Shown: positions 27,680 through 63,503 of the stretch, one piece after another
How positions within the stretch are numbered: the first letter of the stretch is position 1
How the letters are laid out: the number at the start of each line of letters is the position of its first letter
From: Odiellus spinosus
Lineage: Eukaryota > Arthropoda > Arachnida > Opiliones > Phalangiidae
Length of the DNA stretch: 64,000 nt
Direction of reading: 5' to 3'
NCBI GenBank assembly: GCA_963920705.1
Contig: OY987227.1
Location: 23,895,434-23,959,433, forward strand
The notes under the pieces: generated by a model
The model's input: only the letters and a program-made list of their open reading frames with translations
Told to the model about the DNA's origin: nothing
The model's database searches: none
Made by a program: the position numbers and the translations under genes

Positions 27680-28166
27680 CTCTGTAACCAATCGTGTAAC
27701 GCCCTGCCTTCCAGCGAACAAAATATTCGTGACACACGCTATGTCGAGCGCGATTGTGTAAGCGCGAGATGTGATAAATAGCGCGTGCCACGAGCATTTT
27801 TTTCACTGGAAGGCAGGGCCTTACACGATTGGTTATAGCAAGAATCCATTCAGGTTCCATAAGAATATGGGAGGGCCGCGATTCAATAACCATCCTCCCA
27901 AACTTTGTAGCAAAAGTTCGTCCGCTTCGAATCGATTTTTCAAGTAAATCGCTCCTGACATTATATTATTAACCCGCGCCACTAACGACCTTGACATAAT
28001 ATTTTGGGTAATAAAAATGGAGCAGACCGAAAAAAGATCTAAGCGTACAAATGTTGCGAAAATTGCGGACGAACTTTTGTTACAACGTTTGGGAGGATGG
28101 TACCAGAGGCTAAAGCTATGCTCCCATATTCTTATGGAACCTGAATGGATTCTTGGTTATAGAGAG
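27680..28166. mobile_element. Foldback element E, interrupted by D1
   Basis: The left arm CTCTGTAACCAATCGTGTAA…CCCTGCCTTCCAG (27680-27714) pairs with CTGGAAGGCAGGG…CGATTGGTTATAG near 27806-27838. The last few bases lie beyond D1. Without D1 the element is about 165 bp. Its own target duplication is not clear. Confidence 0.75.
27839..28155 (+). mobile_element. MITE family D, copy D1 (nested in element E)
   Basis: A 317-bp element starting CAAGAATCCATTCAGGTTCC and ending with the inverse; the inverted repeats are about 35 bp. Perfect duplication GTTATAG (27832-27838, 28156-28162). It carries a short open frame starting MEQTEKRSKRTNVAKIADEL, shared with D2 but not recognised. It is inserted into the right arm of foldback E. 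Confidence 0.93.
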
Positions 28167-28498
28167 ACATCAGTGAAATCTGGATTTCTTTCATTTTAAA
28201 AATCTTTCGGATATATTTCCCGAATCTATGATGATAGATCTACCCTCCTTTGATTTTTCTCTTCATCCTCCCATTAAGAGTGAAGGTTAACCATAATCTC
28301 AAGTAAATGGAATGCTAAACGGATGTGGAATGTAAGTGTACGGCATCTCTATATGATCATAATGATGCCTTTACCAAACAGCCAAGCCATGCACCTATAA
28401 GTTAGGTTCTCATTCAATAAAAAAAAGGTGCCAAGATCTTTTCGTTTTCGAGACTTCGAACCTTACGTTTAAGATTTATTTTTTTTTCTGGCGAGGAG

Positions 28499-28529
<31 letters not shown>
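28499..28529. repeat. Poly-A tract, 31 A
   Basis: Homopolymer in the d/e intron with further A-runs at about 28680-28693. It has no recognised SINE or LINE body next to it. Confidence 0.9.
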
Positions 28530-28532
<3 letters not shown>

Positions 28533-29150
28533 CCCGAAAGATAAATTTAACAATTTTTTTGTTGGTATTTCGAAAGCGCGCGGTATATTGGAAAGACTAC
28601 ACGTAGGGAGACGAGAAGCAGCTGCAAGAACGTCTAAAAGTTCTCTATCCGATATAGAAACAAAAAGAAAACAGACCAAGAAAAAAAAAAAAAGGAAATA
28701 ACAACAAAGTTTTTGAAAGGATTATGTTGTTGGAGCGTAAACCCATTTCCTATATATATATCCGATCATTTTGAGGTTACAGTAGTTATTAAGCCTCAAC
28801 TGCCATCCAAATCCATGGTTTTAACCCATTTGGATCTCGGGTACAACTGTAGTTTCTTAAGCGGAGTACATTCAAATCAAAAAGGACCTAGAGATAGTGT
28901 TCTATATAGACCCCGATTTTCTCTAAGTATATTTACGACATTTCACCTGGGAATGTGCACTTAATCCAAAGGCAGAGTCAAGACTATTATAGCGAGCCTG
29001 GAAAACCACTTTTCCCCCATCTTTTGGCCATGGTAAACATTCACTAGTCGAAAGAGGCAGTTCCGACTTCTCGCGTCAGTGGTCGCCCCTTCGGTAGTAT
29101 TTTTTTTCCCCGACCTATAGGTTCCTTTTTATTTATATACTTATACTAAC

Positions 29151-29270
29151 CAGAGTTCGATTTCCACCTAATCTGCGGAGTCGGATGTCCTTCGGATTGA
29201 CAATCTAGAGTCACGTGACTTCCCACGACGGCCATCGCGTCTGACGGTTGGACAGTCCAGTAAGGAGACA
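29151..29270 (-). CDS. Dscam: Dscam exon d: first half of Ig8
   Basis: 120 nt (40 codons), phase 1 to phase 1, acceptor TTTTTTCAG|TGTC and donor AACTCTG|GTTAGT. The peptide VSPYWTVQPSDAMAVVG is followed by SHVTLDCQSEGHPTPQIRW, giving the Ig8 B-strand Cys, the G-x-P-x-P turn and the C-strand Trp. It joins in frame with exon c (…MVVN then VSPYW) and exon e (…KSNS then ASESAS). It was found from the protein pattern, not as a long open frame, because the exon is short and stops flank it. Exon e, which carries the second Cys, lies 8.4 kb away across the minisatellite-bearing intron. Confidence 0.93.
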
Positions 29271-30976
29271 CTGAAAAAACAAGAACATTGATTAAGTTCC
29301 CTTAGTACGAGTCTCTCTCAATCTCCTATCCTGAATGATAAATACAAGCCGACCTTGCTAGCTAAGTACTATAAGATAAATATAGCTTGATTGATTTAGT
29401 CTTCACTCAGTGTTGACTTTCATCGGAAGGAAAAAAAAACGGTTAGGTAGGGTTTATTTTAGAGTTTATTCCGTAGAGAGGGAACATTAGATGATTGAGA
29501 AAACTTAAACAGAAGGAAATATAAATGAAGTGGCACAAAGTTATTTAATCTCGAGGGTTTTAAGTTTAACAGATATTTTAATATCATTGATAAAAACTCG
29601 TGGGATTAAAAAGAAGGCTAGTATTCATCTAAATGATTGCATTTTAACGAGTGCTCACGAAGCGCTTTATCGAATGGAAAGAGCTCGTGCCCGGACCCCA
29701 AAAATTCATTAATTTCCATTTTTCGGGAGCCCCAAAAAGTAGGGATCACAACTCTACGTCCGCTCTTCGAGAATCGAGATTATTGCGTAATGGTATAGCG
29801 AGCTTTTTCGTAGAGCACATCCCGTTAAAGAACTCTTCAAACTATTGGCTAATGTATTGTTGCTTAATTTCGATAAACAGTGCAGTTAAAATTAAATCGA
29901 AATAAAGGAAGAATGAAGAGTAAAATAATGTCACTTTTTATTGATTCTGCTTCTGAAAATAGGCCATGTTTGCGCAGTGGAATATTTCAGGAAATGTCTC
30001 TGAATAAGAAACTGACTTATTTAAACCCCAGGCAAAATCTTTAAATCTCTTTATATCTCGTTCTTGATTATTTATACACGCGCGAGATTAAAGGGGATAA
30101 TTTATTAAGTCACATATAGTTAATTTCATATACGTAGAATGTTCGCGGAATGGAATCTAATTTTAATCTGAATTAAAAATGAGTACATAATTTATGTAAA
30201 ATAGTCTGTCGTTTTCAAGATGGTAAGGTAATATTTTTATCGACTCTATAAATTAAAATTAGACTTATTCGTGCATTAAAACGTTCGGGAAGTATCTCTG
30301 AATTTTAAAAAGAATTAAAAGATTAAAATTATAATATTATTCAATTAAAATAACCTTTGACTTTCAAATTATCGGCATACTCTTTAAATCTCATTCTTGA
30401 TTAGTTTTACAACAACGCGTGTTGCGGATATTCTACGAAAACACAGGTGAGAATTCTTTTAAGCGTTGATTCCCATTTCAACTAGTGCAAAATTATACTT
30501 AAACATAATGATTAAAATCAGGTTTTAAACTAAGTTTATTTAGTGCACTATTGTTACTTTTAAGACTTATTTAAATCACTCATTATATGAATGCAACGGT
30601 AATCGCAGTAAGCCAAAACTGAGTGCACTAACCTATAATTTTAATAATTTCAATCAATATTTTTAAGGGAATTCTTTGGATCATTCGAACGTTCTCCTTT
30701 TAATTGAATGCTAAAATTTTTGTTCTTCGTGCAACTCGGAAATAGTTCCCGAATGTTTTAACATTTTTATTTAATAGTACTTAGAATCGATAAATAAATG
30801 ACTATTTTCCATTTCATAAAAGTGGTCAATATATATTATTAGCTTGGTATAAAAACTACAGATTAGTCCGAAACCGTATTTTACATAAAATTGATTTGGT
30901 ACGCATTTTTATATAGATTAAAATTAGAATCTATTCCGCAAACAAACCTAGTCTCTCCCCATTTTTTATAGCACAG

Positions 30977-31380
30977 GTAAATCATGCTTCAAGTTTACAA
31001 CAAGGCATATTATGATTGGTATGTAGTTCTGAAAGTTTCGTCGTCAGAGCTTCCGCCCGAGGAGAGAGGGAAAAAAAATTCAAAAAGACACGGAATACGA
31101 AATTGTCCTCTAGCGGTTGAGATTGGAACTAAGTAAACGGTGCTAATATTGCGCTGAACTTTTTAGACGAGGGTGAAAATGTAACGACGGAAAACAACAG
31201 CGTGTTTCGCCGGGCCGTCGCGATTTCCAGTCTGATTTACCCTAGAAAGAATATAATGGGGCCTGGCCACCTTTCTGTACAAATTTCGGAGTACTTAGGG
31301 TGAAACCATGGACTGAGATAATCGGACTCACTTCATTGTCACCTGCAATATTTCGTTTATAAACTTGTAGGATGATTTAC
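30977..31380 (-). mobile_element. MITE family H, copy H2
   Basis: About 404 bp, the reverse-orientation relative of H1, with GTAAATCATGCTTCAAGTTT at the left and the inverse at the right. Diverged by scattered changes, so older than families B and C. Confidence 0.82.
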
Positions 31381-33082
31381 TTGTGACGTTATTGACATCA
31401 TTTGCGGAAGGCCCCTTTAATCTACGCATATGAAATTAACTAAATTTGTGACCTAATAAATTAACCCCTTTAATCTCTCGGCGATAAACTAGTCGTCGGG
31501 TTTTATTTCAAGAAGAAAAAATAAAAAAAAAAAAACACAATCTGAAATTATCCGCGTAATTATATCGCTAAAACCGAATTAAAACCGACAATCCATGCAG
31601 CTATATTGCGGTGATTAAACGGAACGGTGGCGGTCGAATAAGGAAAACTATAGGACGGGGGGCCACCAAGACTTAAAGAGATTCCTTCGCGCTTGTATTT
31701 TTGAAAAGAATTATTTCCAAGCCGCTAACTTTGACATCTGCTGGTTAGCGAGAGCGCGAGGCCCAAAAACCCACGCGAGCCTGCAGTGTCTGCATCAGTT
31801 TTATCCGCAGCTAGTTTTCGTTCGTTCTTATTTTTTTTTACGACTCGGCATTAGGGGCACCCCGTAGGCGGCGGCCCGCGCTCGGTTAAAGATCGAGGTA
31901 ATGAAGCGAGAAAGTTTTACGCTTTCCAGCCCAAAATTCCCATAGGCAAAGGGCCGAAATTAGTCCCAATTCCACCTCGCCTCTCTCTCTCCTCTTCTAT
32001 AGCATATATATCCTTCTCTTCGTCCTTGCCAGCGCGGGGGTCGAATAGGTGGAGGAAACGTTGCTAAAGCTCGAGGTGGCCTGGCCAAGGTTGGGTTGGA
32101 ATTGAGTAGGCTCCCTGATAAAACCTCAACCATTCCCCATGCATCCCTTCTCCGCTCTCGTTCGATATCTTTTTTTTTGTTAAGTTACATTTGGAGCCAG
32201 CCTCGCGCCCCACCCGTTTAGAACTAGGCTATCAACGCGAATTTTCCAGGGATTTAATTATTCGACGAGTGTAGAAAGACGGAGAAGGGAAAAAAAAGTT
32301 AATTTACGACGAATGAACGATAAAAAAATTAATCCGCTAACGGAAGAAAATAATGCAATTTTTTTTTTTCACCCTAACTTTTTTTTTAAAAAAAATATTT
32401 CGGTTAAATGGCACTATAGGGAGCTTAATCCAATTTTTAATAACACCGCACAAATAAGTATACGTCCCTTGACTAGTTTTTTTTCCTCCCACCCCCGATG
32501 AGTCTTCGTTGTCGGGCATGGAAGTAAAAGTCTTGGTAAAAGTAATTAAACTAGACTGGTTTAGTCGTTCAACGGTATTTTTTTCAGCGTTTCTTCTATA
32601 GTTATTTTTTTATTTTAAATGTATCGTGGTATATTGGATACTAGGGGGACTTGACTGCAAAATGAGTTTCAGCGTATAACTTTCCAAAAGTGTTTATGTA
32701 CAAGTTCTAAAGTGTCAGTCCCTATAAAGAGAATATCTGAGCTGGGAATTGATAAATTATTACCAGTCAAATTGAAAATTACTATCTCAGGGTATCTTTG
32801 GTATTCTAAAATTCAATAAACTTCAAAGTTAAATACAAGTTTAACAAAAAATCCAACCAATAAATAGAACTTCTATTCCCATATCCATCTGATATTAGTT
32901 AAAAGAGGCCGAAAAGGAATTAATCAAATAGGTTTCATAGATTCTACACGAGCTGTTAGAGTAAATAAAACTTACAGGAAGTGTCTGAATTGTAAAATGG
33001 ATAGAAAAAGATTTAAAGGGAATCTTTGAGCTAAAAATGGAACACCTTTTAAATTTATTTTCGGAATCACTATGATTTGTAG

Positions 33083-33420
33083 CAGAAGCCGATGAAACCC
33101 TCCTTTGAAGTCTATTACTCCCGGGTCTTGTCTACCCCTCTCTGTATGGGTTAGTTTCAAAAAGCGCGATTTGTACGCCTCCTAACGGTAGATATTTTCG
33201 GAGCGGGAGTTCGTCGAGCGAATATCTCTAGCAGCCTCGGAGTTCGTCAAAAAAAACGTCGTCGTTTGTGGAGAGAGAGAATTTCCAATTTCGCGTAGAT
33301 TGGGGGTATGAAGTAGGACCCCTCCGATCTCGTAAAATTGGGAATTTTACCCATACAGAGAGGAGCGCTATATGGAACATTAGAGTAGTAGACTTCAAAG
33401 GAGGGTTTCATCGGCTTCTG
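33083..33420 (+). mobile_element. MITE family A, copy A10
   Basis: Subfamily 2. Perfect duplication TTTGTAG (33076-33082, 33421-33427). Confidence 0.95.
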
Positions 33421-34211
33421 TTTGTAGTGATTAACGAACACGGTTCAATCACAACAGAAGATTCAGGCTCTCAGGACTACAAGATTAAACTACGCGAGCA
33501 CCTTGATCTCCAGTAGTTATTGCTCCACGTTCGCTCCATTAATTCGTCTGATCTATATAAGCTTTTAGTCTCGAAAAATATTGACTTAATTAGGATAGTA
33601 ATTTACTAGTCAATTTAACCGGTAGAGTATAAAGTTCATAGGAATATCGTTAACAACTTTGCATAAATTTTAGCGTAGAAACTTGAAAGGAAAATGTATA
33701 CTAAATTATCTCTCACTTTATAACATGTACGTATAATATGAAAAAGTAAACAAAAAAATAGGGGTCCCGAGTTCTCGAGGCGACGAAAACCTTTTACATT
33801 AACTCGGTAATGATGATTTTCCTTTTAAGTTTATCTTGAAACGGTGTCGAAGAAGGGGATGGGTTTAAAAATAGGATGGGCTATAGTTGAAAGAGAGAGG
33901 GTCCGAGGGGTAATGGGGGGGGGGGGGGGGCGATGATGTAAAAGCGCCACGAGTCTCGAGAGCTTTAAGTTTCCTTCCTCTCGGAATTTGCATCCTAATG
34001 ATCGAACTGAGAGAGTCATCTCCCCCGAATCCATCCAATTCCCTCGCTTCCTAAGCAATAATAGGAGGGACCCGGCTATTAACATTAGAGGAAGGTCCTT
34101 GTATTCGGTACAAACACGTGGGCGCCGGAGGAACTGAAGAGCTCCATACCAGAACACGTGACAAATATATCGTATAGTTAATACGACCCTTTTCCCCACT
34201 TCGTTATTGTT

Positions 34212-34495
34212 CAAGGGAGAATGCAACCCACCGAACATTTTTGACAATATTAAACTAGGAATTAATATAAAACTTAATAGGATTAACTGGATTCATGGAG
34301 ATCATGAATTTATTCTCATTGAAGGATCAGCGATCAAGCGAATGTTTCTGGAAGTCACAAAGAGATCTCGCCTTAACGATGGCCACTTGTTTATTGGTCG
34401 TTTATCCATCAATGCGAAGAAATTCAGGATCTTCATGAATCAAGCTTTGAATGTAAAGTTTTAACTGGTGGGCTAGGATTATTTAAACGATCCTA
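34212..34495. mobile_element. Family F copy F4, degraded
   Basis: CAAGGGAGAATGCAACCCA at the left, GGATTCATGGAGATC inside and TATTTAAACGATCC at the right. Considerably diverged; the right terminal repeat is not seen. Confidence 0.7.
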
Positions 34496-35326
34496 TGTTA
34501 GAGACAATTTTATATTAAGAGATATAACGTAATTAGGACTACGCGGATGATTAAAATGTCGCTTGCTTTGAAAACGTTCAACTTCTACATAGAAACTAAT
34601 CTTAATATATATCCTAATTCAAGTTGCTAAGCCTAAAGAAAGTTGTATTATTAGTTATACGACATTAATATTAAATCTAAATGAGGATTAAATAATTATC
34701 AGTTCATTTCATATCCCCTTTAAAAGTTCTGAAGAGAATGAAAGAGGAGTTTAAGAATATTTCCCTCGGGAAGTTTAAAAAAGGGTTTGGCTCGGATAGC
34801 GCTTTGGCTCAGAGTAGAAAATTAACTTATTTATAGTTTGATAGTTTTAAGCGATTCAATTCCCCTCTCAATTTTTTTTTTCTTTTATTTTGAGCCAAGT
34901 GGAAAAAGAGGAAATTAAAATCTAAAGAGGATAAAAGACCAAATTACTTTCCGGGACCTCCTATCACTTCTATTTCACGCCGGCGCACTCACCCGCGAAA
35001 TTCTGTAGAGGACCAACCGTATATTCTAATAGAGTTTTTCAACTTAAAAAAAATCTGGGCGGAAATCAATTATCATCCTTTAAAATAAAAAGGGTTGTAT
35101 TGTTTAAAGTGAAAAAAATGCAATAAAATAATAGGACTAAATTTAGATAATGTTTCACTATCTAGTGTAAAATGAAGCTCTCTACCAGGGTGAAATTTTC
35201 CTAGGTATTTTCTACGCTCCCCTGTAGAAGTGTTTCTCTCACAGAACTATAATGTGCATCGTGAAGTGTCCTACTACTTCGATGCATCATTTTTTGTCTC
35301 GAATAAAATATAATTTACGATAAAGC

Positions 35327-35664
35327 CAGAAGCCGATGAAACCCTCCTTTGAAGTCTACTACTCCAATGCTCCATATAGCGCTCCTCTCTGTATGGGTAA
35401 AATTCACAATTTTACGAGTTAGAAGGGGTCCTACTTCATCCCCCCTGTCTACGGAAAATTGGAAATTCTCTCTCTCCACAAACGACGACGTTTTTTGGAC
35501 GAACTCCAAGGCTGCTAGAGATATTCGCTCGACGAGCTCCCGCTCCGAAAACATCTACCGTTAGGAGGCGTACGGATCGCGCCTTTTGAGAAAAACCCAT
35601 ACAGAGAGGGGTAGATAAGACCCGGGAGTAATAGACTTCAAAGGAGGGTTTCATCGGCTTCTGA
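35327..35664 (-). mobile_element. MITE family A, copy A11
   Basis: Subfamily 1, very close to A3. Perfect duplication ATAAAGC. Confidence 0.95.
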
Positions 35665-37935
35665 TAAAGCTAAACAAATATACAGACGGCTAATAATAAT
35701 TGAAGTGAAGGTCGAGGGTGCAGACACTCGCGAACTCAGGTGTACAAAATGTTTGAACTCTTTGCACTATCAAAGCTGAACACAGAGTTCATAAGAGTGC
35801 GAACTAAATGAACTGTCAAGGCTGAACTCAGGTGTATAGCGAATTCAAGAGCGTCGGCCCCTTCGTTGAAGGGGAACCTTTTACAGGGACGCAGCCATTT
35901 TAAGTTAAATTTAAATCAAAACGGGGAATCCTAGAGGGCGGCAGCGGTCGGCGTAGGTGTGGAAAAGGTCTGAAGGAAGAGTGATACGTGTAATAGCACC
36001 AGCTAGTGTTTTGTTTACTCTCCACTTTTACCTCTCAAGCAAGGCTGGCTCACTGTAGGTTTTCTCCGCGGCAAATTTATGAAACTAGTCTGAACGCGCC
36101 GCTGCATTCTGATGTTCGGAAGCGAAATATGTTAAAGTGCAGCATTGGAATCTTCAACGATAAGTCGTATCGCGATGATAAATCGAAGGCAGGTGTTTTA
36201 GTCTTAAGGGTAAACCTTCGGGGCGCCTTAGCCGTAATAAGTAATTCTATTTTATTATTACAATAAAGTCGGGATTATCATAGATGTGGTAAAAGAGGGT
36301 AAAAAAATAAAAAAAAAAGGTAGAAAAAAATGCGTGGATATGAAATATTAATGCCTCGAGAGGAAACGTTACGCTATTAATACGAAAAGCCATTTCAAGT
36401 TTTTTTATACAAAAAAAAAAAAGACACCAAAGAACTTTGCGACGAACGACAAAAACCCCATTTATACTTTAGTATCCAAGTGTTAAAACCCATCCACCTA
36501 TTGATAACAAAAATCTAATATTTAATATAAAAAATATAAACGCGTCTGATGCTTATCTTAAATACTATGAGACACTATTTTCTAACACGAATAATTAAAT
36601 AATAAGTACCACGCCATGACAATATAAAGGTTAAAACAAAGGAGACTGCAAATCGCCATGAGGGGAAAGAAAGCTTTTGGACTGAAAATTTAACTAGTTT
36701 TTATTTGAAAATAATATTAAACCTTTTTAGACTTTCCACTGAGCTTATACTTTTAATGAAGTGGCTTTTCGACCAATAAGAGGCTAGAGTCCATCTAGCG
36801 ATGTTTTAGAATATAGAGAATGATGGAGATAGATTCTCGATATAGTGGAGATTTTAGAAATCAGGTAGAGTATTAACCAGGCTTTCCGTCAATTTAGTAC
36901 AAGAAAACCGGCGCTAATTATAAATTGTAGAACAAAATGACCATATTTGCGTTAAGCTAATTTTGAAATTGTACAAATTGAAATTAAAATTGAGCAAAAT
37001 GTTGGAAGGAATGGCGCTTCGAGACAATTTATCATATTTCTATCCAATATACAAAATAAACGCTTCTTAAAACCTATTTTAGAACTCTTTAAATGGACTA
37101 TCATCGTGTTTAAAGCCCCCTTTAGAATCGATTTTATTAATTAGCAGACGACGTTGGCCATATCAAATTGAACAGTCAAAAGTAGGCTATGTTTATAAGA
37201 GATATATAAGAGAAGTCATTCAAAGGGGTATAGAGCAGATAGAGCTTTTACGAGGTGTTTACTGTTTACGGAAAGCTTTGACCTAGATTTTTTTGTCGGT
37301 AGGGGGTCGATATTCGACGAAACAATCGAAAATCTTGTGGTAAACCCATATATTTTCATGATCTTCGAATAGAAATTAAAGTGCATTGAAATAGTACATA
37401 TACTATCCCTTTAACATTTTAAATCTAAACCAAATTAAATGAATATACCAACAGCTTAATTTGTTTATATTTTCTGCATCAGAAAAATGTACGAGAGTCC
37501 TTCATATGTTCTGGCAATTTACATAATTACTAAAATATTGAAATTTTGTTACGAAGCAAAATTTTGGGGTCCTAAAAATTCAGTTTACAAGTCCCGATAA
37601 AAAGGTAATTTTTTAGGCTCCCAATTTTTTTTATCCAGGGCCACCTTAATTAATTCTGGCCTGAAGTCTGCGGTTGACGTCCTAGGTTAAATGGAAACAT
37701 TGATCTACTCCTTACAATCTAGGGTGGTTGGTTTTTACTTTGGGTCAGAGGATGGAATATTAGCGAAGACCCTACGGTAACACGGTTTTCCCGCGAATTT
37801 CCTCAAAATCGAATCGTCGTCGAAAGCCATATAAACCCGGAAATATTAATCACTGGATATCCGAAGGGGACGCGAGTGGGGGGGGGGGGTGGCAGAGTGA
37901 AGAGGTCTATTAAAAGATCAAAGAGGGAAACTCAC

Positions 37936-38220
37936 CGTTAACGACCATCTTGGCGGTATGGTTGACCGAAGCGGCAGGATTTGTGGCGACGCAAGTATAG
38001 CTTCCGCCGTGCTTGGGACCAACTTTGTTAAAGGTTAGGGTCGACGTGAAATTATTAACGCTGTCCACAATGGCGTTCAGTTGCGGATCCAATGGTTTGT
38101 CGTCTTTCAACCAGGTCAGAGTCAACGGAGAATCACCAGCGATGGCCGCGCACACTGCCACGCTACGCATCCCTTCTTCCAAATCAGCAGGAAATGAAAA
38201 AGAGTCGATTCGGGGACCAA
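37936..38220 (-). CDS. Dscam: Dscam exon c: complete Ig7
   Basis: 285 nt (95 codons), phase 1 to phase 1, acceptor TTTTGTAG|TTGG and donor AACG|GTGAG. One exon holds a whole Ig domain: linker VGPRIDSFSFPADLEEG, B-strand Cys (SVAVCAAIAGDSPLTLTW), C-strand Trp (TWLKDDKPLD), an NFTSTLTF E strand with a potential N-glycosylation site (NFT), and F-strand SYTCVATNPA. By position between Ig6 and Ig8 it is Ig7. In insect Dscam1 the equivalent exon exists as a large mutually exclusive cluster. Here the flanking introns (6.9 and 8.7 kb) show no second Ig-like exon, so Ig7 looks constitutive. The flanking intron at 37880-37889 has a short G run. Confidence 0.95.
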
Positions 38221-41557: not shown

Positions 41558-41895
41558 CAGAAGCCGATGAAACCCTCCTTTGAAGTCTACTACTCCAATG
41601 TTCCATATAGCGCTCCTCTCTGTATGGGTAAAATTCCCAATTTTACGAGTTAAAAGGGGTCCTACTTCATCCCCCCCTGTCAACGGAAAATAGGAAATTC
41701 TCTCTCTCCACAAACGACGACGTTTTTTGGACGAACTCCAAGGCTGCTAGAGATATTCGCTCGACGAGCTCCCGCTCCGAAAACATCTACCGTTAGGAGG
41801 CGTACGAATCGCGCCTTTTGAGAATAACCCATACAGAGAGGGGTAGACAAGACCCGGGAGTAATAGACTTCAAAGGAGGGTTTCATCGGCTTCTG
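41558..41895 (-). mobile_element. MITE family A, copy A12
   Basis: Subfamily 1. Perfect duplication ATAAAAG (41551-41557, 41896-41902). Confidence 0.95.
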
Positions 41896-42580: not shown

Positions 42581-42872
42581 CAAGAAGGATCAGATAAGGA
42601 GAGGAAAAGTGGGAACGGCGCGGCTCCTACTGCGTCGGCCTAAACCCCCACTCTGGGAGAACGGGGGACAGACGGGGGTAGAGATGCTTCGTGGTAAATT
42701 GTTGTCACGTGGGTAAAACGAATCCTTTATGAGACGCGTTAGCTAGCGACCACGTGACAACAGTTTACCTCGAGAATTTCCTATCCCCCCTTTCCACCCG
42801 AGTGGGAGGTTGGCTCTTCTCTCTCTAACTCAACGCAGACCCAATTTTCCTCTCCTTATCTGATCCTTCTTG
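42581..42872 (+). mobile_element. Foldback MITE family C, copy C1
   Basis: A 292-bp element starting CAAGAAGGATCAGATAAGGA and ending with its inverse. Flanked by CCCAAAT on both sides (42574-42580, 42873-42879). The centre has two CACGTG motifs (42706-42711, 42751-42756) in an inner inverted repeat (TTGTTGTCACGTG / CACGTGACAACAG). Confidence 0.94.
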
Positions 42873-44081: not shown

Positions 44082-44499
44082 CAGAGGTATATAATAACCC
44101 CCTTCGGGGGGAAGTATGAAAGGTAGGCAAAATCGACGAACAACAAGTGCCCAGCGTAAATCGCGGCGGATTGACACACCGCTTTACTCCATAAAAATAG
44201 TTACACCATTTTGAACCTCACTAAATTTTCCCTACGCACGCTTCCGGAACTCGCGAGCTGAAGTCAACCTTCGACTCCATTTTAACAGACAGCCTGACTC
44301 CTGAGACAGGAAGTTCTCAACACAAATCGAGCCGTCTTGTTTATACAAAGACCATTTACTAGAGTAGCGACATTGAGAAGTCCAGCGCGAGCTAGTGGCC
44401 TAGATAGTCAGCAGCGGGCTCTTGTTGTTCGTGATTTTTAGCATTGGTATTATTGCGGCTTTCATACTTCCCCCCGGAGGGGGTTATTATATACCTCTG
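44082..44499 (+). mobile_element. Foldback MITE family B, copy B1
   Basis: A 418-bp element starting CAGAGGTATATAATAACCCC and ending with the inverse. The terminal repeats run about 65 bp to CGACGAACAACAAG. Flanked by CTCTTAC on both sides (44075-44081, 44500-44506). The interior is GC-richer and encodes nothing recognisable. Confidence 0.94.
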
Positions 44500-47246: not shown

Positions 47247-47583
47247 CAGAAGCCGATGAAACCCTCCTTTGAAGTCTATTACTCCCGGGTCTTGTCTACC
47301 CCTCTCTGTATGGGTTATTCTCAAAAGGCGCGATTCGTACGCCTCCTAACGGTAGATGTTTTCGGAGCGGGAGCTCGTCGAGCGAATATCTCTAGCAGCC
47401 TTGGAGTTCGTCCAAAAAACGTCGTCGTTTGTGGAGAGAGAGAATTTCCAATTTTCCGTAGACAGGGGGGATGAAGTAGGACCCGTTCTAACTCGTAAAA
47501 TTGGGAATTTTACCCATACAGAGAGGAGCGCTATATGGAACATTGGAGTAGTAGACTTCAAAGGAGGGTTTCATCGGCTTCTG
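47247..47583 (+). mobile_element. MITE family A, copy A13
   Basis: Subfamily 1, in the opposite orientation to A12. Perfect duplication CTCTTGT (47240-47246, 47584-47590). It abuts the degraded family F fragment F5. Confidence 0.95.
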
Positions 47584-47595
47584 CTCTTGTTTAAA

Positions 47596-47726: not shown

Positions 47727-48830
47727 CTGCTTTAATTAAGAGTTAAATTAGTTAACTCTCCATTTTTAAACGATATTGGCACCAGCAAGTAGATTTATTT
47801 TGAATTTTACAATTGAAAAATGTTTTCTCAAGGGATTTAGTTTAGGGTAAGCTTGTCTATAGGTCCAACTTTGATAATTAACTGTCAATTACTACATAGG
47901 AAACATTTGGTGAGTTTAAAATATTGTTTTTACCCATATTTTAAGTCCAAATCGATTGAAAATAACTTGTTATCAGAGTCTAGTAACCCTTTAAAACTTA
48001 AAAAGTATTATTTTTTTCTTAACTTAACGAATACCGTATATTTTGTGTATAAACCCAATAATCGAGAATTTCCATCTGAAAATATATGCAAAACAGTCAT
48101 CCGACGAAAAGAAAAACTTGATATTCGTGCAAGGGGAGAATCGATTACTATATATATATACGGGAAAAAGAATTTCATTTTAATACTAAGAAGATTGGAA
48201 AGAATAATGGATTTGGCATTTTTGCTTCGAATAACGCGAGCCGGGGTCCATCCTTTGCCCTTCCCCTTCACTCCACCAAACCCGAAAAAAAAGAAAATCT
48301 AAAAGAGAATAGCATTTAAATAATGCGAAAACCTTTGGACTCGAATTTGCATAGACCGAAGTATACCAGGACCATTTTAGGCACACAAATATAACTTCTA
48401 GGGCGGAAAAAAATGTGGATAAGTAAAAATCAATCTTTCTGGAAGGAAAACCTTTATTTTGGTGGTACAGCCCAGGCTTCTTTACACAATATAATACGTC
48501 TGCGGTTTCAGGCAAAAGCTATATATAAAAAGCAAAAAAATTTCCCCATAGCTATATAGCCGCAACCGAAAAAAATGTATAACAAAGATTGCCAGCGATA
48601 TATTTTCTCTCCGGGGTGAAGAAAAAAAATGGAGAAATCTTTCAAAACTATCGATCATAAGTTGGCACCCTTTTCTAGATGTGTAAAAAGTATATTTATC
48701 CATGGCGAAAAATGGTAGAACGGGCATTGAGATTTGAAATAATCTCAACTATCGAAGAATATACTTTTTGAGAAAAATATCACTTAGAGATCACTGTGAA
48801 AATAACTTCATCCTTCATGAAAGGCTAAGA

Positions 48831-49768
48831 TTTGTATCAATGGCGGAATAATCTTTAACGAGTGGCTCATGTCAATTTTATTATTTTAAATTAATCTAGG
48901 GAATGATTTCTTTCTAATGGTGCTATCGGTTTAGGACTAGGTGATAGGAAAGAAAAGTTACGATCATTTCAAGATAGGGGTCATTTTAGGACTTTTTCCC
49001 GATTTGTATCAATGGGGGAATAATCTTTAACGAGTGGCTCATGTCAATTTTATTATTTTAAATTAATCTAGGGAATGATTTCTTTCTAATGGTGCTATCG
49101 GTTTATGCCTAGGTGATAGGAAAGAAAAGTTACGGTCACTTCAAGATAGGGGTCATTTTGGGACTTTTGTCCGATTTGTATCAATGGGGGAATACTCTTT
49201 AACGAGTGGCTCATGTCAATTTAATTATTTGAAATTAATCTAGGGAATGATTTCTTTCTAATGGTGCTATCGGTTTATGCCTAGGTGATAGGAAAGAAAA
49301 GTTACGGTCACTTCAAGATAGGGGTCATTTTGGGACTTTTGTCCGATTTGTATCAATGGGGGAATACTCTTTAACGAGTGGCTCATGTCAATTTAATTAT
49401 TTGAAATTAATCTAGGGAATGATTTCTTTCTAATGGTGCTATCGGTTTATGCCTAGGTGATAGGAAAGAAAAGTTACAATCATTTCAAGATAGGGGTCAT
49501 TTTGTGACTTTTGCTCGATTTGAATCAATGGCGGAATAATCTTTAACGAGTGGCCCATGTCAATTTTATTATTTAAAATTAATCTAGGGAATGATTTCTT
49601 TCTAATGGTGCTATCGGTTTAGGACTAGGTTATAGAAAAGAAAAATTACGGTCATTTCAAGATAGGGGTCATTTTGGGACTTTTGCCCGATTTGTATTAA
49701 TGGCGGAATAATCTTTAACGAGTGGCTCATGTCAATTTTATTATTTTAAATTAATCTATGGAATGATA
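48831..49768. repeat. 172-bp tandem satellite, about 5.5 units
   Basis: Units begin TTTGTATCAATGGSGGAATA at 48831, 49003, 49175, 49347, 49519 and 49691, exactly 172 bp apart each time. Units 3 and 4 share private variants (AATACTC, TTTGAAATT), which points to recent local duplication. Units 1, 5 and 6 share GGCGGAATAATC. No coding pattern. Confidence 0.95.
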
Positions 49769-51840
49769 ATTTTTCTATTACAAGGTAATTTCTTAGAGTG
49801 TAGGGCGCGCTGAAAACCATCCTATATATCTTTGTCCCGTCACTCGCGCGTCATGACAATACCTTTAATAGAACCATAGTGAAGGTAATAGACCCCTCTT
49901 TTTGAATGGCGTTCGTGAAAACAAGGTCCAAGCCTTCAAGGTTTAGTTTCATCTCAACCTCAAAAAATGCTATTAACGGGCAGTACCAGAGTATTTCGAG
50001 CGTAAAGAGAAACACGATTTTTGCATTAAAATCCTGGCCGAAGCCGCCTGGTGGAAATTTTCCATTTATTTAAATATAAAGCTACGCGATTCACGCTGTT
50101 CCTACAAGCATCGAGGCTTAGCTTTCGGATTTATATAGAAGGGGCCGGCGCTTTGAACAGCGAATTCGCGAGGTTAAAGTTCCCTGGATCTTATATAAGG
50201 AAGATGGAGCGGCAGATTATAGAAAAGTCAGGGGGGCCCGTCGACCCCCGCCCCCGCGAAACTTAAAAAAAAAGGAGTTAAGATCGAGAGTTGGCGCTTC
50301 TGGCCTCGCCTATATAGTCAAGCTATCTACGTATAAAGTCATTACTTTTCATCAAAAGTTTTAATTACGTATTAGGAAAACTAGAACTGCAGAGCGCCCG
50401 CGTAATGACTTTCCAACAGAGAAATCTTCTCTTTTCAAATTGTTACAAATCCTTTCGTATAGTAACTATAGCGCCCGCGAGCGGATATTCAAAAGATCTT
50501 TCTGTTCACTCAACCGTGAACTTGCAATTTACAGTTTTACACGCGGCGATACAGGGCTGATTAATTATTAAGCTAAGCGTATTCAATGTATGATGAAACT
50601 CCAAAAATCAGAATCTAATTCCTAGGAAACAACTACGAGAGAAAAACTGCAGCCTTATAAAAATTTACAATGTCTGTCTGTCTGTCGGTCACTAAAGATA
50701 AAATGTAAACGCTATGGTAGCAAAATGAGAAGAGCTATGGTAAATTGATACACACAATGTTAAACTACATGCTTCGAGCGAGTTTGATTTTGAAGCTTGA
50801 TTTTAGGCTTAGTGTTTTAAAAGAGGTTTAAGTTAAATAAATTATATTTAAGTGAATTAAAACAGTAGCTATTTTTAAAGAAATTTTCTAAAGAACTGAA
50901 ATAGAGTAAAATTAATTTCAGTAATTATAAAAATTATAATATTAATTATATACAATATATTACGTATATTTCCTTCAATATCTGTCATTACCAAGAAATT
51001 TAATCTGAATTAAATAGAAAGGCATTTATTCGGTTGCATTCTCCCTTTAGGTACCAAGCCTAATATAATCCAACCTAACCTAACCTTCCATAATAAAAAA
51101 AAAAACTTAACCTACCATTATCTTATAACTATGAGTATGTGCCTTCTAAGGAATGCGATTGAGAATAGTGGAAATATTATGTTGTGACAAAAATGAGTAT
51201 CGCGTTATAAGTAATGTGTTTTTAGTTCTATAATAAAAATGTATAAGAAATTGGGACATTTTCTGACCAGAAAACTATATTTTTCTTCGAAGTCTATGTA
51301 TCGTAACTGTTATTGCTTACGCAATACGATATATCTTTGGTGGGTCGGGTCTGTTAAGAATCTCAACGTCTCAGTTCATATACGGATGCTTCCATTCTTT
51401 TTATGGGTCTCACCAAGCGATATATAAAGTATGTATCTAACGATCATCTTTTCCTCCTCCTATGTAGTTTAGTATTTGCCGCGCGAAGTGTCAATCCGCC
51501 TTATAAGTCGTTTTTGGGGAGGGCAATTGCCCGCATTTCATTCTCCATCACCATTCTCGAACTGATATAAACGTATATCCCACATTTTTTTTATAGTTTA
51601 ACGGCAACACGCACCTTTCATATCTTAATCCGAAAATGTTTCCAATTCTAACGCGCGTTTCACGTACAAGGATGAGAGTTATATTCCATAGAAACATATT
51701 TTTCGACCACAGCGCAAAAACTCGTAAACCCTTGCAAGGAAAGTTTCTAACAGCAGTTTTAGATAAGTTACCATCCCAACAAAACTATAACCCGTGATAT
51801 ATTTTATTTCCAACACAACTTTGTTTTTTATTAGTATTAT

Positions 51841-52157
51841 CAAGAATCCATTCAGGTTCCATAAGAATATGGGAGGGCCGCGATTCAATAACCATCCTCA
51901 TAAACTTTGTAGCAAAAGTTCGTCCGCTTCGAATCGATTTTTCAAGTAAATCGTTACTGACATTATATTATTAACCCGCGCCACTAACGACCTTGACATA
52001 ATATTTTGGGTAATAAAAATGGAGCCGACCGAAAAAAGATCTAAGCGTACAAATGTTGCGAAAATTGCGGACGAACTTTTGTTACAAAATTTGGGAGGAT
52101 GGTACCAGAGGCTAAAGCTATGCTCCCATATTCTTATGGAACCTGAATGGATTCTTG
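51841..52157 (+). mobile_element. MITE family D, copy D2
   Basis: 317 bp, same orientation as D1 and few differences. Duplication GTATTAT (51834-51840, 52158-52164). Its 3' duplication leads directly into a long ATT microsatellite. Confidence 0.93.
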
Positions 52158-52165
52158 GTATTATT

Positions 52166-52167
52166 AA

Positions 52168-52261
<94 letters not shown>
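52166..52261. repeat. ATT microsatellite
   Basis: About 32 uninterrupted ATT units immediately after the 3' target duplication of D2. The open frames across it (poly-Asn and poly-Leu) are artefacts. Confidence 0.97.
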
Positions 52262-52262
<1 letters not shown>

Positions 52263-52502
52263 AGGGACGTTGAAGCAAAGTACAAATGGGGAAAATTGTA
52301 GTTTGATAATTTTCAACTATAGAGGCGCGATTAATCAAAGATTTTGCAAAAGCGCGTCTCTCGCGTTACCGTGGCAACCTGACGTAGTAATATCTACGTC
52401 GGGTTGCTACGGTAACGGGAGAGACGCGTTCGCAAAATCGCTGAATGATCCCGCCACCTATCGAGAAAAAAATTACAATCTTATACAAGCTAAAGTTCCC
52501 TC
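52262..52502. mobile_element. Foldback element with near-perfect 100-bp central hairpin
   Basis: Outer arms (AGGGACGTTGAAGC near 52262 and the diverged inverse ending near 52502) enclose a nearly perfect palindrome, 52340-52439, with a loop around TAATAT. The arm contains GTTACCGTGGCAAC and its partner GTTGCTACGGTAAC. The left end abuts the ATT microsatellite. Outer boundaries are approximate. Confidence 0.65.
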
Positions 52503-54205
52503 CTATTTCTGGAGCGCGCACTCGCTTTGATAAAATATAGGTGGCGTAGGCGCAAGCAACCTCTGTCGTAAATTTGACATTTTCCCTAAAGCTTCCCTGC
52601 CTTTGACAGTGGCTTTGAAACTCCCCAATCCCTTTCTAGTCTTAGCAAATACCTCCTTCTTTCAATTAATAACTATATATATTTATAAAATAAGAGTTTA
52701 ATTGATTACTCATTAATACTTGAAACCCTTCATCCTTAATTTAGCTGCCTTTTACAACGAAGTTAATTAATTTTATGGATTTGTCTAGAGTCGTTTCCTG
52801 TTATATTTTTTTCATCTGGAAAAAGTCCAAAGATTCTAAAAAAACGATTAAAATAATAAAACTGGAAACTTTATTCACATATTCTGGAGCTAATTTAATT
52901 AACCTAACCGAATATTAAATTTTTTCAACTAATTAACTTTTTTTTAACCTTCTTCGAGTTCATAAAACTGATCCTTATCGTACAGAGAACGCGCGAGTTA
53001 AGGATAAAATTCGTTTTCTCGGTAAGCCTTGGTCTTTATGGATTTGGAAGTTCTATTGTTTTCTCCATTTGTTGCTCTAAGTCATATTCATCCGAATCTT
53101 TTAATCTATTAAATCTGACTAATCCGCTTTCCATTGTTATTTTATATGTATGTTTTTATTGGCTTAAGTACTTTAATCTAAGCCTTAGCGGGAATCAAAC
53201 TGATGGCCTATCTATAAGATGAATCCATGATTACGAACTTGGGCCATATTAAAATTTACAAATCTTTTCACCAAGAGTTAAGGAGAGGTTCTAATTATTA
53301 AATTAAATATGATAAACTAATAAGCCACTCGGGAAAGATGTCACCAAATTAATATGGGTTAGGAGTCCGATTCTTTTTACTCGGGATCCTACTTTGGTTT
53401 TAATTAGTAAACTAAGCAATAAATTACGGCATATTGCACTCTATTCCGTTTGGGCTCCCTTTTAGCAGACGACGTTGAATTAACTATCAAGCTAAGACTC
53501 GGTTTCCAGCATCTAAAGGGTTCCTTTAAACTTTTAAAGTCCATTCCCGGTTAACAAACACTAAAAGTAAAAATAAGACTTTCGAACTCTTCATCGATGT
53601 TGATTTTACTACTGTCCGTTCATTGCATTACAGGCAATAAAGTTTCGAGAAAGGAAGAAAGAAATGGTACGCGATTCTCCCTTCACCTTTCACTTTATTG
53701 CTTCCAAAGACTAAACCAGAGGACAGACTATAAACCAACAGTGGAAGAGTAATATGATAGGAAAATATTTTAGATGGACTCGAAATTTTTTGAAATACCT
53801 TATCCTAAAATAAACTATCGAAGAAAATATACGTTTCTGCGCATCTGATGCGTCTTCTTTTAAAGGGATAATGAAAACCGATGATAAAAACATTGAAACT
53901 CGCTAACGAAAAGGTTTCGCGTCAATTTAGAGTTAATTAACGGGCCTTAGTACGGATAAAAATGTCAGAAAATATTTAGCTAATCAAAAAGCGTTTCAAA
54001 ATATTTCAAGTGTGGTTTGATTAGCTGTAGATTTTCTGCGAATTTTAGTAGTCCTGAAAATGAAGATACACAGCTGCAATCGCAACTTCGTTAACTGTAA
54101 ATTAACGAGAAAGGTCTGGTGATTTTTAGTACAGTTTTTCGTCATTTTAAAACTTGTTAATCGTCTTTAATATCCTCATAAAGGGAGAATGCAACCATAG
54201 AATAT

Positions 54206-54384
54206 AGCTACGTTTACCCTTAACACTTTGAAACGATTTTCAAGCCGTTTAAAATATTCAAATCGACTTTACAAGCAAATAATTGCACTTTTTGACAAAA
54301 GATCTCTACCGTTGACCCCAAAATTTTCCATTTTGACCTTTCCAAAAGGGTTGAAAGTTTCAAAGTATCTAGCGTGAACGAGGC
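54206..54384. mobile_element. Short MITE family L, copy L2
   Basis: Left AGCTACGTTTACCCTTAACA, right TATCTAGCGTGAACGAGGC, with GTTGACCCCAAAATTTTCC inside. Partial arms of the same family are visible around 13600-13690, 44668-44700 and 60885-61037. Confidence 0.7.
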
Positions 54385-54414
54385 CCATCTTATTTTCTAT
54401 CGATTTCTTATGAT

Positions 54415-54751
54415 CAGAAGCCGATGAAACCCTCCTTTGAAGTCTATTACTCCCGGGTCTTGTCTACCCCTCTCTGTATGGGTTAGTTTCAAAAAGCGCG
54501 ATTCGTACGCCTCCTTACAGTAGATATTTTCGGAGCGGGAGTTCGTCGAGCGAATATCTCTAGCAGCCTTGGAGTTCATCAAAAAAACGTCGTCGTTTGT
54601 GGAGAGAGAGAATTTCCAATTTTCCGTAGACAGGGGGTATGAAGTAGGACCCCTTCTAACTCGTAAAATTGGTAATTTTACCCATACAGAGAGGAGCGCT
54701 ATATGGAACATTAGAGTAGTAGACTTCAAAGGAGGGTTTCATCGGATTCTG
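54415..54751 (+). mobile_element. MITE family A, copy A14
   Basis: Perfect duplication TTATGAT. Shares markers of both subfamilies (GGGGGTATGAAG with CCCCTTCTAACTCG). Inserted between two separated family F ends (54183 and 55014). Confidence 0.94.
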
Positions 54752-56824
54752 TTATGATTTATAAATATAAATATTAAGATATAAATCCATTTTTAATTAC
54801 CCAAAAAGTAGGCTTAACGACCGAGTTTTATATCTTATGTTTAACCACGGGTATTCTCACGTGATTCACCGGTGACAGGTTAAATACGTGATATAATAAT
54901 CTCCATGGATTATTGTTAAGCCATCTTTCAGGGTAGCTTATAATTTTTTTACTATTGTATTAGGCATATTTAAACGGTAATGATAGCAAAATCTCTTGTT
55001 AGGTTGCATTCTCCCTTAAAGTAAATAATATAACGGCTCGGTCCGAATCAACTCTCTATCTTGTAAATATTAGGTTTATCTTGAAGTAGTGCGACATAGT
55101 TTCGGTTATTTTTTCCTATAGCTGAGGAATAAAACCCTTCCAATGGGTATCCATCCAATATTTGGTCTTCCTGTCTCCATTTCTCATATTAATACGGCCC
55201 TGAAATATTCTTCGGGCAGTGGAATATTGACAGCTTGACCTTATTCAAAATCTGTTATTCATAACTACAATTTACAGAAAGTATGTAGGTCAAGGATGAT
55301 TTCTGGCGCAACGCTTATCAGAAAATCTAGGTTGGTACACGTGCCCGAGGCTCTAGATTATGGTATTTAAAGGACCCCTAAGAGAAGCAAGTCTTGAAAA
55401 ACCAATATCTAGACAAAAAAACAGACCACCCTGAACACAAAAATTAATTCAAATGTGTATAGTTTTTGAGATAAATATTTAGAATAATCAATTTTAAGTT
55501 TATTGATTTATTAAATTTATTTTTAAAAGACAGATGCCAACCGGAGACTGCGCGCTATTATCAATATATATTTCCCTTCAAAAAGCCCAATTCCTAATCT
55601 ATCTCAATTTATTGCAAGGTATTATATCTTACGCTACGAAGGCATCTTTGCAGGTGTATATACCGTTAGTATTTCACCGACATTATGCACGCTAGACCGC
55701 GTCACGTTGAAGAATAGTTGCCGAGTTGGCATAAATATAGATTTTACAAAGTTTTTGTGTATCAATTCGCGTTAGATTTTCCCATTAAGCCAAATTCTCT
55801 TGAACAAATCTTGGATTGGAAGCAACACGAGTTTAGCTACACTACCCTTTACCTCTTTGATTTGTGGACTAGTTAGAGATAGAAGGGACACTTTACTTCA
55901 CGCTTTCTGCCAACTCGAGCTGAAACTGAATATATAGTAAGCATAAGGAACCGTGATATTTTCGGGTCTTCTCCAATAAACGAAGAAAAATGAAAAAGAA
56001 AAAAAAAAGTCGAAAACGGAAAAAAACTTGAAAATCATCGATTCTTTGGGCAAATATTAAAAATAAAAATTCCTGGCGCTTCTGTCACAATAAGAAGAGT
56101 TTGGGATAGTCCGGAAAAAAAATTATACATTTTTTTCCCGGCCTATTCTTCCATTTGCTCGCGAGTTCCTTTTCAAAAGTTTTTCCGGGGATTTTATTTT
56201 TTATTTTTTAAGAGTATTTTTTTACTCTCGTCTCTCCCACATGGGTATCCTAAACATTTTTCAAAAAGTCGTTTTTATCTTTCTCAGGGCGAAAAGAATA
56301 TAGGAAGTAGACTTTCAGACGAAACGGATCTTTTCTGGACATTTTTGCTCGGCGTCTAACTCGCTCCCAACTCAGGAACTCCGTATAGCGTCGCGTTTGA
56401 GTTTTCAACCCGTAGGCACATTCTTTCATCGAAAAACGTAAGAGAAAAGAAAGAACGCTTAACGTATTGGCTCTTACACGGATAGTGAAGCGGGAAATTC
56501 CTTTTCTCAACAACAGGGCTCAGCTAACGCGAAGATTAAACTGATGGTTGTATGTTGGCCCCGGAGCTGATCAATATAGCGCCTAGTTTTTTATCTTAAT
56601 GTTGGCGAGCGCGACTCCTCCGTTTATTTTAGAAGAATAGAATACATCTCATTGAACTCTGACCTCATCTCTAGATAAAGGAGGGAAAACAAGAGACACT
56701 CGTTCCCTCGGGTCTATTTTGGGAATTCCATCGCGGGCCCTGAATTAATAGGATCTGCCTATTATATACCACTCTATATTGTTTTATAGCCAGTGAACGT
56801 TCCCACTGGAATTATTACGATTAT

Positions 56825-57242
56825 CAGAGGTATATAATAACCCCCTTCGGGGGGAAGTATGAAAGGTAGGCAAAATCGACGAACAACAAGTGAACGGCGT
56901 AAATCGCGGCGGATCGACACACCGCTTTACTCCCAAAAAATAGTTACACCATTTTGAACCTCACTAAATTTTACCTACGCGCACTTCCGGAACTCGCGAG
57001 CTGAAGTCAACCTTCGACTCCATTTTAACAGACAGCTTGACTCCTGAGACAGGAAGTTCTAAACACAAATCGAGCCGTCTTGTTTATACAAAGACCATTT
57101 ACTAGTGTAGCGACATTGAGAAGTCCAGCGCGAGCTAGTGGCCTAGATAGTCAGCAGCGGGCTCTTGTTGTTCGTGATTTTTAGCATTGGTATTATAGGG
57201 GCTTTCATACTTCCCCCCGAAGGGAATTATTATATACCTCTG
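56825..57242 (+). mobile_element. Foldback MITE family B, copy B2
   Basis: Also 418 bp, with only scattered differences from B1, so the two are young relative to family A. Flanks are CGATTAT and CTATTAT, a 7-bp duplication with one change. Confidence 0.94.
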
Positions 57243-57851
57243 CTATTATTTAAAGGTATCTGTGATAGAGTCTGACAACTTCCTTAAAGCGTAATAGAGA
57301 GAGCATTATCCTATACCCGTATACGTCCGCTAGTGCTCGGAACAGTGAACTATCTAAAATTGACGCGATAACTCTTAAATGGGATGATTATAAAATTTTA
57401 AAACCTGAAACTAATTGGTATAGTGTTTGGAATTGGATAATCATTTTCTTCTATTATTCATATTTTTTCAGATAATTGTTTGTGACTAATAAATGCTATT
57501 CGTAAATTCAGATAAAACATAAATGGATAAGGTTTATCCGAAGATAAACGCTATAAGCTTTATCTATTAACAAATTACTCGAATTAAAACGTTGGATAAG
57601 AAAATTCACATTCTTAGAATTCGTGGAAAATAAAATAAATACAAATTTACTTACGATTCGAAGAAAATAAAAACAATAAAATTAAGCTATTATGCCTAGG
57701 TTTAAAGTTTATTTATTAAATTTGAAGAAAAAAATATTTTTTAATTGTCTTATCCGGACGTATTACTCGGATAATATTCTAGGATAAGGCCATTTTCGGA
57801 TAAAAACAGATACGAGTCTTATTGTTTATTTTACCTTCGGATAATTTAAAT

Positions 57852-58143
57852 CAAGAAGGATCAGATAAGGAGAGGAAAAGTGGGGCTGCGTTGAGTTAGA
57901 GAGAGAGGAGCCAACCTCCCACTCGGGTGGAAAGGGGGGATAGGAAATTCTCGAGGTAAACTGTTGTCACGTGGTCGCTAGCTAGCGCGTCTCATAAAGG
58001 ATTCGTTTTACCCACGTGACAACAATTTACCACGAAGCATCTCTACCCCCGTCTGTCCCCCGTTCTCCCAGAGTGGGAGTTTAGGCCGACGCAGTAGGAG
58101 CCGCGCCGTTCCCACTTTTCCTCTCCTTATCTGATCCTTCTTG
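57852..58143 (-). mobile_element. Foldback MITE family C, copy C2
   Basis: A 292-bp, near-identical copy of C1 in the opposite orientation. Perfect 7-bp duplication TTTAAAT (57845-57851, 58144-58150). Confidence 0.94.
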
Positions 58144-60021
58144 TTTAAATGGAATGATTAACTGAATTAACTAAGCAAACTGATAATATCCGAATATAAT
58201 TCAGTAGATCTATCCTATTAATAAAAGTTTCACGAACTCTGTAGCTTCTCAGTTGTTCACGGTATAACGCCAAGATTATAAAATTAGAAAATTTTCAATG
58301 TATAGTTTTGTCATCAGTCTTTCATATCATATGATCATGGGAGCAGAATATAACCAAGCGATTGTTCATAAATAGGAATGACCCACGGTAGGAGAAAAAT
58401 TCGATTCGTATTCGATCCACGCGGGCGTGGAAGATGCTGCGAGTCTACATCATGAATCTTTTCCATCATTCCTTATTATCGAGAATATAGTCGACTCCAT
58501 CTACCATCTCTCTCTCTGATGGAGTCCTTTTTTTTGTCTATCTCGTTCGAAGAGCCAATTTAAAAGTCCATTATCGTTCATTTCTTTTCACGGGTAATTC
58601 TTTGGCTATATAAACTATTCCATTCGAAGACGTGGGCGGGATTATATAACTTTTTCCTCCTCGGGTTAGAGTAATTGGCAATTTTTGGGGGGCATTGGTT
58701 CCACGTATCTATACGCGTACCTCGTCAGGTACAAAGGGTGGAATATAAGGGTGAGATATTCTTGTTTTCATGATGATCAATACTGCCTAGCTGTTGTTCT
58801 CCGTATATAGCTAAACAGCCAATTTTCAAAAAAGGATTTCTGTACCCTTTAAAGGGAAGTCCATTAAAACAGAGGCTAGTATAGCGTGGAATGGAATGGT
58901 TTCATTTCTGCAGCAGCAAGATTTTAATATACATTGATCTCTAGGTATAACCCCTGTCGTGGTGGTAATATATCAAAGAGCTTTGGAAAGCGAGTGATAC
59001 CTTTAATTTATACCAACCGATAAACTGGACTGTATAAGGGTATATAAGATACGTGTTGGATTGCGCGAAACTTAGCCATGCCGCGTATAGTTTAATTAAT
59101 TTGATAGAGTATGTTCGGTTATCCGCCTAATATACAAGAGGGAGATCAGATCGTCGTTATGGGAACGAGCTGTATACTAAATATCTATAGTATAAGGTCG
59201 TCGATGCCGCCCCGCTGTCGTATACCCGCTGTTATAAGGATGCGCCGCGAATACATTCGGTCCCGTGAAATATACAACGGATTAAAGGGGGGCTCAAAGG
59301 ATCACCTGTCGTCCTGTCCTCATCCGTTTACTTTACAAATCCCACTTTAACACGCGTTGCTGTATATAACTTTCAGGGTTATATGTTATGAACAAAATTT
59401 AATTGAATTTAAAATTTAATATCATCCCTCCACCCTCCCTGTAAAAGGCGTTAGTTGAATACCGATATTACAATGCCATTACACACCCGATGGGAAAGGG
59501 TTCGACTATTCATTACAATAATCGTATTCAAAGCATCAGGAATTTTGGAATACATGCACCGTGAATAAATTTTATATTATTCTTAATAATGATACTTTTT
59601 CGAAAGTAATTGGCTTTAAAAGGGGAATGCAACCTAACAAGTGATAGGCCTAAAAATATATATACTGATTATGTCAATTTAGCGGTGTAAAATTAAAACA
59701 TGAAGATTTTAAATAATTTAACAATTAATAAAGTGATTAGTTCGGTACAAATGTACTAACGGGAGATCAATTTATATTTAAATGAAATTATAGTCAAAAG
59801 AATTAGAAGGGGATGCTTAGGTTCTGCTTTTTAAAACATATTTGACAGTGAGGCTCGCACTTTTTGAGCCTGGATTAACCCGTTAAGGTCATAGGTCGAA
59901 TCTTTCGTCATGGCTCCGGTTCGGAAGACAAACTAAATATATATTAAATTGTTGAAATTGATCCATCTTTCAACTTTGATATTTGAGGTTAGACCTCGGG
60001 TTAGACGAAGAGGGAGGAGAG

Positions 60022-63471: not shown

Positions 63472-63503
<32 letters not shown>

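Follow-up and report, generated by a model that had tools for sequence, protein, structure and literature searches.

We identified 21 short transposon-like elements in one 64-kb window (the whole stretch of DNA analyzed here, 23895434–23959433 of contig OY987227.1, from an assembly of 443 Mb in 286 contigs), and these comprise four families, A to D, together with a single 487-bp element that has family A ends. All four families start with CA and end with TG, carry terminal inverted repeats (TIRs) and one further inverted repeat internal to them, and are flanked by target-site duplications (TSDs) of 7 bp. They are probably miniature inverted-repeat transposable elements (MITEs), that is, tiny, gene-less, non-autonomous cut-and-paste elements. 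Judging entirely from the anatomy of their ends, repeats, and duplications, we think it reasonably likely that A–D are P-superfamily MITEs of the 1360/Hoppel–Galileo kind, which makes 7-bp duplications. They would then probably be ordinary relatives of known P-type transposons rather than members of a new class.

We built the element set by scanning the window for inverted ends between direct flanks, searching it by BLAST with one representative of each family, and tabulating the flanking sequences. Family A is represented by 14 near-full copies (~337 bp), which make up ~7% of the window, and families B (418 bp), C (292 bp), and D (317 bp) by two copies each. The initial annotation of this DNA had placed four unrelated-looking families between 27832 and 58150. 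We recovered all four, each with CA…TG ends, TIRs, and 7-bp TSDs, and the duplications it quoted (CAAGCAC for A at 21374–21709, CTCTTAC for B at 44082–44499, TTTAAAT for C at 57852–58143, and GTTATAG for D at 27839–28155) are correct; the interval does hold such elements but is too narrow, as family A extends from 108 to 60778. "Unrelated-looking" is also apt: the ends start with CAGAA in A, CAGAGG in B, and CAAGA in both C and D, and the first 11 bases match between families at 2–7 positions. The 14 A copies diverge from their majority consensus by 1.2–4.8%, indicating fairly recent movement of this family, and the two copies of each remaining family are 95.9% (B), 98.3% (C), and 97.8% (D) identical. 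The 487-bp element is perhaps an older relative of family A.

We found that an exact 7-bp TSD flanks 17 of the 21 elements (A 12/14, B 1/2, C 2/2, D 2/2, and the 487-bp element 0/1), with the A copy at 108–445 counted by taking its first base as a C-to-T change; this copy is the sole departure from CA…TG termini among the 21. The four inexact cases are two 6/7 matches (A at 6443 and B at 56825), a 5/7 match (the 487-bp element), and a 6-bp flank (A at 5923), and none of the 21 elements has an exact 8-bp duplication. A strict scan of the window (14-bp inverted ends with the first 5 bases exact and ≤2 mismatches, 60–3000 bp spacing, and exact direct flanks of 4–11 bp) returned 18 CA…TG matches, for which the longest duplication was 7 bp in 16, 6 bp in one, and 4 bp in one. 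Other ends gave 40 matches at 4 bp, 4 at 5 bp, 10 at 6 bp, two at 8 bp, and single matches at 7 and 10 bp; those at 8 and 10 bp fall within two long palindromes (4323–4742 and 63289–63744). The same scan of ten first-order Markov shuffles gave no CA…TG matches and nothing longer than 6 bp. A looser scan (12-bp ends, one duplication mismatch tolerated, spacing to 8 kb) returned 24 matches at 7 bp, 3 at 6 bp, and 1 at 8 bp; the 24 were 17 copies of A–D, three pairings between interior segments of opposite A copies, and four isolated matches. Four shuffles scanned in this way gave 0, 1, 3, and 0 matches at 7 bp and 1, 2, 0, and 1 at 8 bp, so the isolated matches are near chance level and the repeated families are not. 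On the basis of both scans and their shuffles, we rejected an 8-bp duplication as well as coincidence in a T/A-rich window. An "element I" had initially been suggested as a fifth family; we could not identify it, and the looser scan to 8 kb yielded no convincing fifth family.

One insertion allows the 7-bp value to be checked internally, with a result that is supportive but short. The D copy at 27839 sits in the right arm of a palindrome (arms 27682–27742 and 27778–27838), and when we removed D and one copy of its duplication in silico, the joined flank could be aligned through the junction to the opposite arm (74% in an alignment of 165 columns that extends 10 bases beyond the junction). No empty sites for the other 20 joined flanks were found in the window.

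The TIRs are 22–35 exact bp long, or 41 bp with one mismatch in B. Beyond what had first been observed, we found that each of A–D carries one further inverted repeat, of 12–15 bp, whose two copies lie at different distances from their respective ends. This paired repeat is CCTCTCTGTATGGGT in A (58–72 and 55–69 from the ends), ACGAACAACAAG in B (55–66 and 68–79), TGTTGTCACGTGG in C (111–123 and 120–132), and ACCATCCTCCCAAAC in D (51–65 and 55–69). When the interiors were shuffled 300 times per family, using one copy of each, no shuffle attained the observed repeat length. Both sites are present in 14/14 A copies, where 27 of the 28 sites are exact and the right-hand distance is 54–56, and the sites are exact in 2/2 B and 2/2 C copies.

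To define the target preference we tallied 20 of the 21 duplications, excluding A at 5923 for its 6-bp flank and taking the left copy in the three imperfect cases. The preferred target is nTnnnAn, with T at position 2 in 15/20 and A at position 6 in 16/20; both occur together in 12/20 targets, compared to 10% expected from base composition. Extending the tally into the flanks revealed T at −2 and A at 10, equal in strength to T2 and A6 (32/40 symmetrized sites each), and, less strongly, A at 0 with T at 8 (21/40 each). The weaker pair matches the half-motifs ANAGT/ACTNT published for 1360 and P; the corresponding half-motif given for Galileo is AANGT (PMC4168063).

We favor the P superfamily because the 7-bp duplication, the CA…TG ends, and the internal inverted repeats each have a published counterpart there. 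The P element of Drosophila melanogaster starts with CA. Zebrafish Pdre2 has CA…TG ends as described, starting CATACCTG and finishing CAGGTATG (PMC10983969). The P element is described as having 31-bp terminal and 11-bp internal inverted repeats with unequally spaced binding sites (PMC7776569), and the binding-site positions given are 53–63 and 41–51 for P and about 70 bp for Galileo (PMC3688188). In Drosophila, 1360 (Hoppel, ProtoP) is reported to have a modal duplication of 7 bp in 274/279 insertions and the target motif GTTNAAC, earlier given as KTNBWAB (PMC3276498). It resembles the window families in duplication length and in having T and A at target positions 2 and 6, respectively, but differs in the target flank at −2 and 10, and the likeness is drawn from anatomy, not sequence. 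Galileo duplications are mostly 7 bp, with three copies at 8 bp and the consensus GTATTAC (PMC4168063), and again mostly 7 bp with GTAGTAC in D. buzzatii (PMC2775673). In D. mojavensis, chimeric Galileo copies are reported between non-matching 7-bp sequences and most other copies between identical duplications (PMC3573991). Galileo also resembles the window families in having many copies without transposase, whereas its TIRs are long, up to 1.2 kb (PMC2775673), compared to 22–41 bp here. Finally, P-type MITEs whose central regions are unrelated to P are known from Anopheles gambiae, where the parent P elements have TIRs of 27–31 bp (PMC1562414).

These comparisons also bear on how unusual the set is. 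The 7-bp value had initially been set against hAT, piggyBac, and mariner only; it is not an orphan, since the sources cited above report it for 1360 and Galileo. The accompanying proposal of one transposase class, possibly poorly described, is supported in its first part, since the four families have in common their duplication length, CA…TG ends, and terminal and subterminal layout, and the pooled sites show the target preference. The class need not be poorly described, because 7 bp is published for 1360 and for most Galileo copies, both of the P superfamily.

If the P assignment is correct, the elements would be mobilized by a P-type transposase (THAP domain and RNase H) encoded elsewhere in the genome; a search of the window for CA…TG pairs spaced by up to 8 kb revealed no candidate autonomous element. 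Such a transposase may bind the subterminal inverted repeat, which lies 50–130 bp in from each end, pair the two ends, and cut at the CA…TG termini. The cut ends would then be joined to the target with a 7-bp stagger, preferably at nTnnnAn, and gap repair would produce the 7-bp duplication. Because both the ends and the subterminal sites differ between families, every family probably depends on a separate autonomous partner.

Several observations weigh against this assignment. It draws on anatomy and on what the set works like, for which P is the best fit, whereas the defining feature of P is its transposase (THAP domain, RNase H with a GTP-binding insert). The P-type elements of Anopheles (PMC1562414), D. 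melanogaster P (PMC3276498, PMC7776569), and zebrafish Pdre2 (PMC10983969) are reported to duplicate 8 bp, not 7. The subterminal site of C (111/120) lies deeper than the published P and Galileo binding sites, the sites in the second D copy carry 2 and 1 mismatches, and no subterminal repeat was found in the 487-bp element at 19592–20078. With respect to targets, at −2 the window motif has T (with A at 10), whereas the half-motifs of P, 1360, and Galileo place A there by our own alignment to the duplication, and KTNBWAB fits only 4/20 duplications on either strand. Compared with random sites in the window (2000 draws), the excess of target palindromes is on its own weak (p = 0.054). In addition, nTnnnAn can be read as a 7-bp form of the hAT preference NTNNNNAN.

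The last point supports the main rival explanation, that A–D are hAT-type MITEs from a lineage with 7-bp rather than 8-bp duplications, which we regard as unlikely overall. hAT elements follow the end rule CAGNG, which B (CAGAGG) fits but A (CAGAA), C, and D (both CAAGA) do not. The resemblance in target preference is to hobo, for which an NT…AN form is published, but hobo duplicates 8 bp in 1196/1198 insertions (PMC3276498), and our set contains no exact 8-bp case. Repbase, judging by its example query, seems to include hAT families annotated with 7-bp duplications; against this, a single paired, unequally spaced subterminal repeat per family resembles the layout described for P (PMC7776569).

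A variant of the P assignment is that a single P-like transposase, from a lineage outside flies, moves several MITE families whose ends have little beyond CA…TG in common. It would read the layout and the short subterminal site, not a long terminal sequence, and would prefer a palindromic 13-bp target motif of its own (T at −2, T2, A6, A10). We consider this improbable; separate autonomous partners fit the differing ends and subterminal repeats at least as well.

We think it very improbable that the four families depend on transposases of different superfamilies and share 7 bp and CA…TG by coincidence. The agreement of the ends at only 2–7/11 positions speaks for this explanation, and the Repbase rule, as far as its description goes (equal duplication length and 10/11 end positions), would keep the four families apart on sequence, but the duplication length, the termini, and the terminal and subterminal layout are common to all four. 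There is slighter prospect still of a new transposase class, or of a P-like lineage distinct enough to merit a separate name, for which T at −2 and A at 10, unlike the motifs published for 1360, P, and Galileo (PMC4168063), would be the argument. Against a new class, the duplication length, end letters, and repeat layout are each matched in what is published on the P superfamily. Dada-type elements, which make 6–7-bp duplications and target small RNA genes, are a negligible prospect, for although the duplication length agrees and the phrase "7 bp target site" occurs in two papers on Dada, neither a tRNA nor an Rfam match at E 0.01 was found in the window, and its duplications vary between sites.

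With respect to the setting of the insertions, the window contains 137 open reading frames (ORFs) of ≥70 aa, of which 11 low-complexity ones were removed; 10 of the remaining 126 were searched against Pfam (the first one codon short) and the other 116 were inspected by eye. Five of the 10 have immunoglobulin (Ig) or fibronectin domains, and the Pfam search gave no match for the other five; of these, two lie largely within an A and a B element, respectively, and one lies in D. Minus-strand ORFs with Ig and fibronectin III domains occur over 11227–62384, and two ORFs match the DSCAM C-terminal domain weakly, below the model cut-off, which suggests an intronic position for the insertions, within a Dscam-like gene. 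CpG is not depleted in the window (observed/expected 1.19).

Rfam searches over the window gave nothing at the gathering score or at E 0.01, and a MIR5380 match far below the cut-off was dropped. Exact end patterns of A and D had no matches in viral contigs (0 and 0). The 21-mer from the A end had one match in prokaryote contigs, to a Solirubrobacterales contig of 68% G+C; the only further similarity to A–D consisted of 11-base matches, and we attribute the match to chance. The long palindromes at 4323–4742 and 63289–63744 are two different inverted-repeat elements, flanked by TTAA and starting with AGGGA, which we take to be perhaps piggyBac- or Kolobok-type MITEs. The window also contains a tandem array at 25514–26303 (30-bp unit, 26 copies, 93% matches, several frames open) and a satellite-like tandem array at 48829–49767 (172-bp unit, 5.5 copies, 95% matches).

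Table 1. Elements with family A–D ends in the 64-kb window; positions are counted from the first base of the window.
Element	Positions	Strand	TSD	Remarks
A MITE	108–445	-	ATAAGTA	T replaces C as first base
A MITE	2555–2889	-	CCTAAGG	
A MITE	5923–6259	+		direct flank 6 bp only, GTTTTA
A MITE	6443–6781	+	CTAAAAT vs CTAAATT	6/7
A MITE	18006–18344	+	ATCAAAT	
487-bp A-ended element	19592–20078	unassigned (.)	CTCATAA vs CTCATGT	flanks 5/7; interior unlike A
A MITE	21374–21709	+	CAAGCAC	
A MITE	22490–22819	+	CCAAAAT	
A MITE	26965–27302	-	GTTTTAT	
D MITE	27839–28155	+	GTTATAG	TIR 35 bp; inside arm of palindromic element 27682–27838
A MITE	33083–33420	-	TTTGTAG	
A MITE	35327–35663	+	ATAAAGC	
A MITE	41558–41895	+	ATAAAAG	
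C MITE	42581–42872	-	CCCAAAT	
B MITE	44082–44499	+	CTCTTAC	TIR 41 bp, one mismatch
A MITE	47247–47583	-	CTCTTGT	
D MITE	51841–52157	+	GTATTAT	adjoining TAT microsatellite (52159–52261) could blur right TSD copy
A MITE	54415–54751	-	TTATGAT	
B MITE	56825–57242	+	CGATTAT vs CTATTAT	6/7
C MITE	57852–58143	+	TTTAAAT	TIR 33 bp, exact
A MITE	60443–60778	-	CTTCTAC	TIR 32 bp, exact

Were the P assignment wrong, these elements would amount to ordinary genome annotation. If it is right, the 7-bp (1360/Galileo) branch of the P superfamily, described in Drosophila in the sources cited here, would extend to another host, probably another arthropod, and this region of the host genome would carry a dense load of recently moved MITEs. 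It would also mean that P-type MITEs can be recognized by their anatomy despite unrelated interiors.

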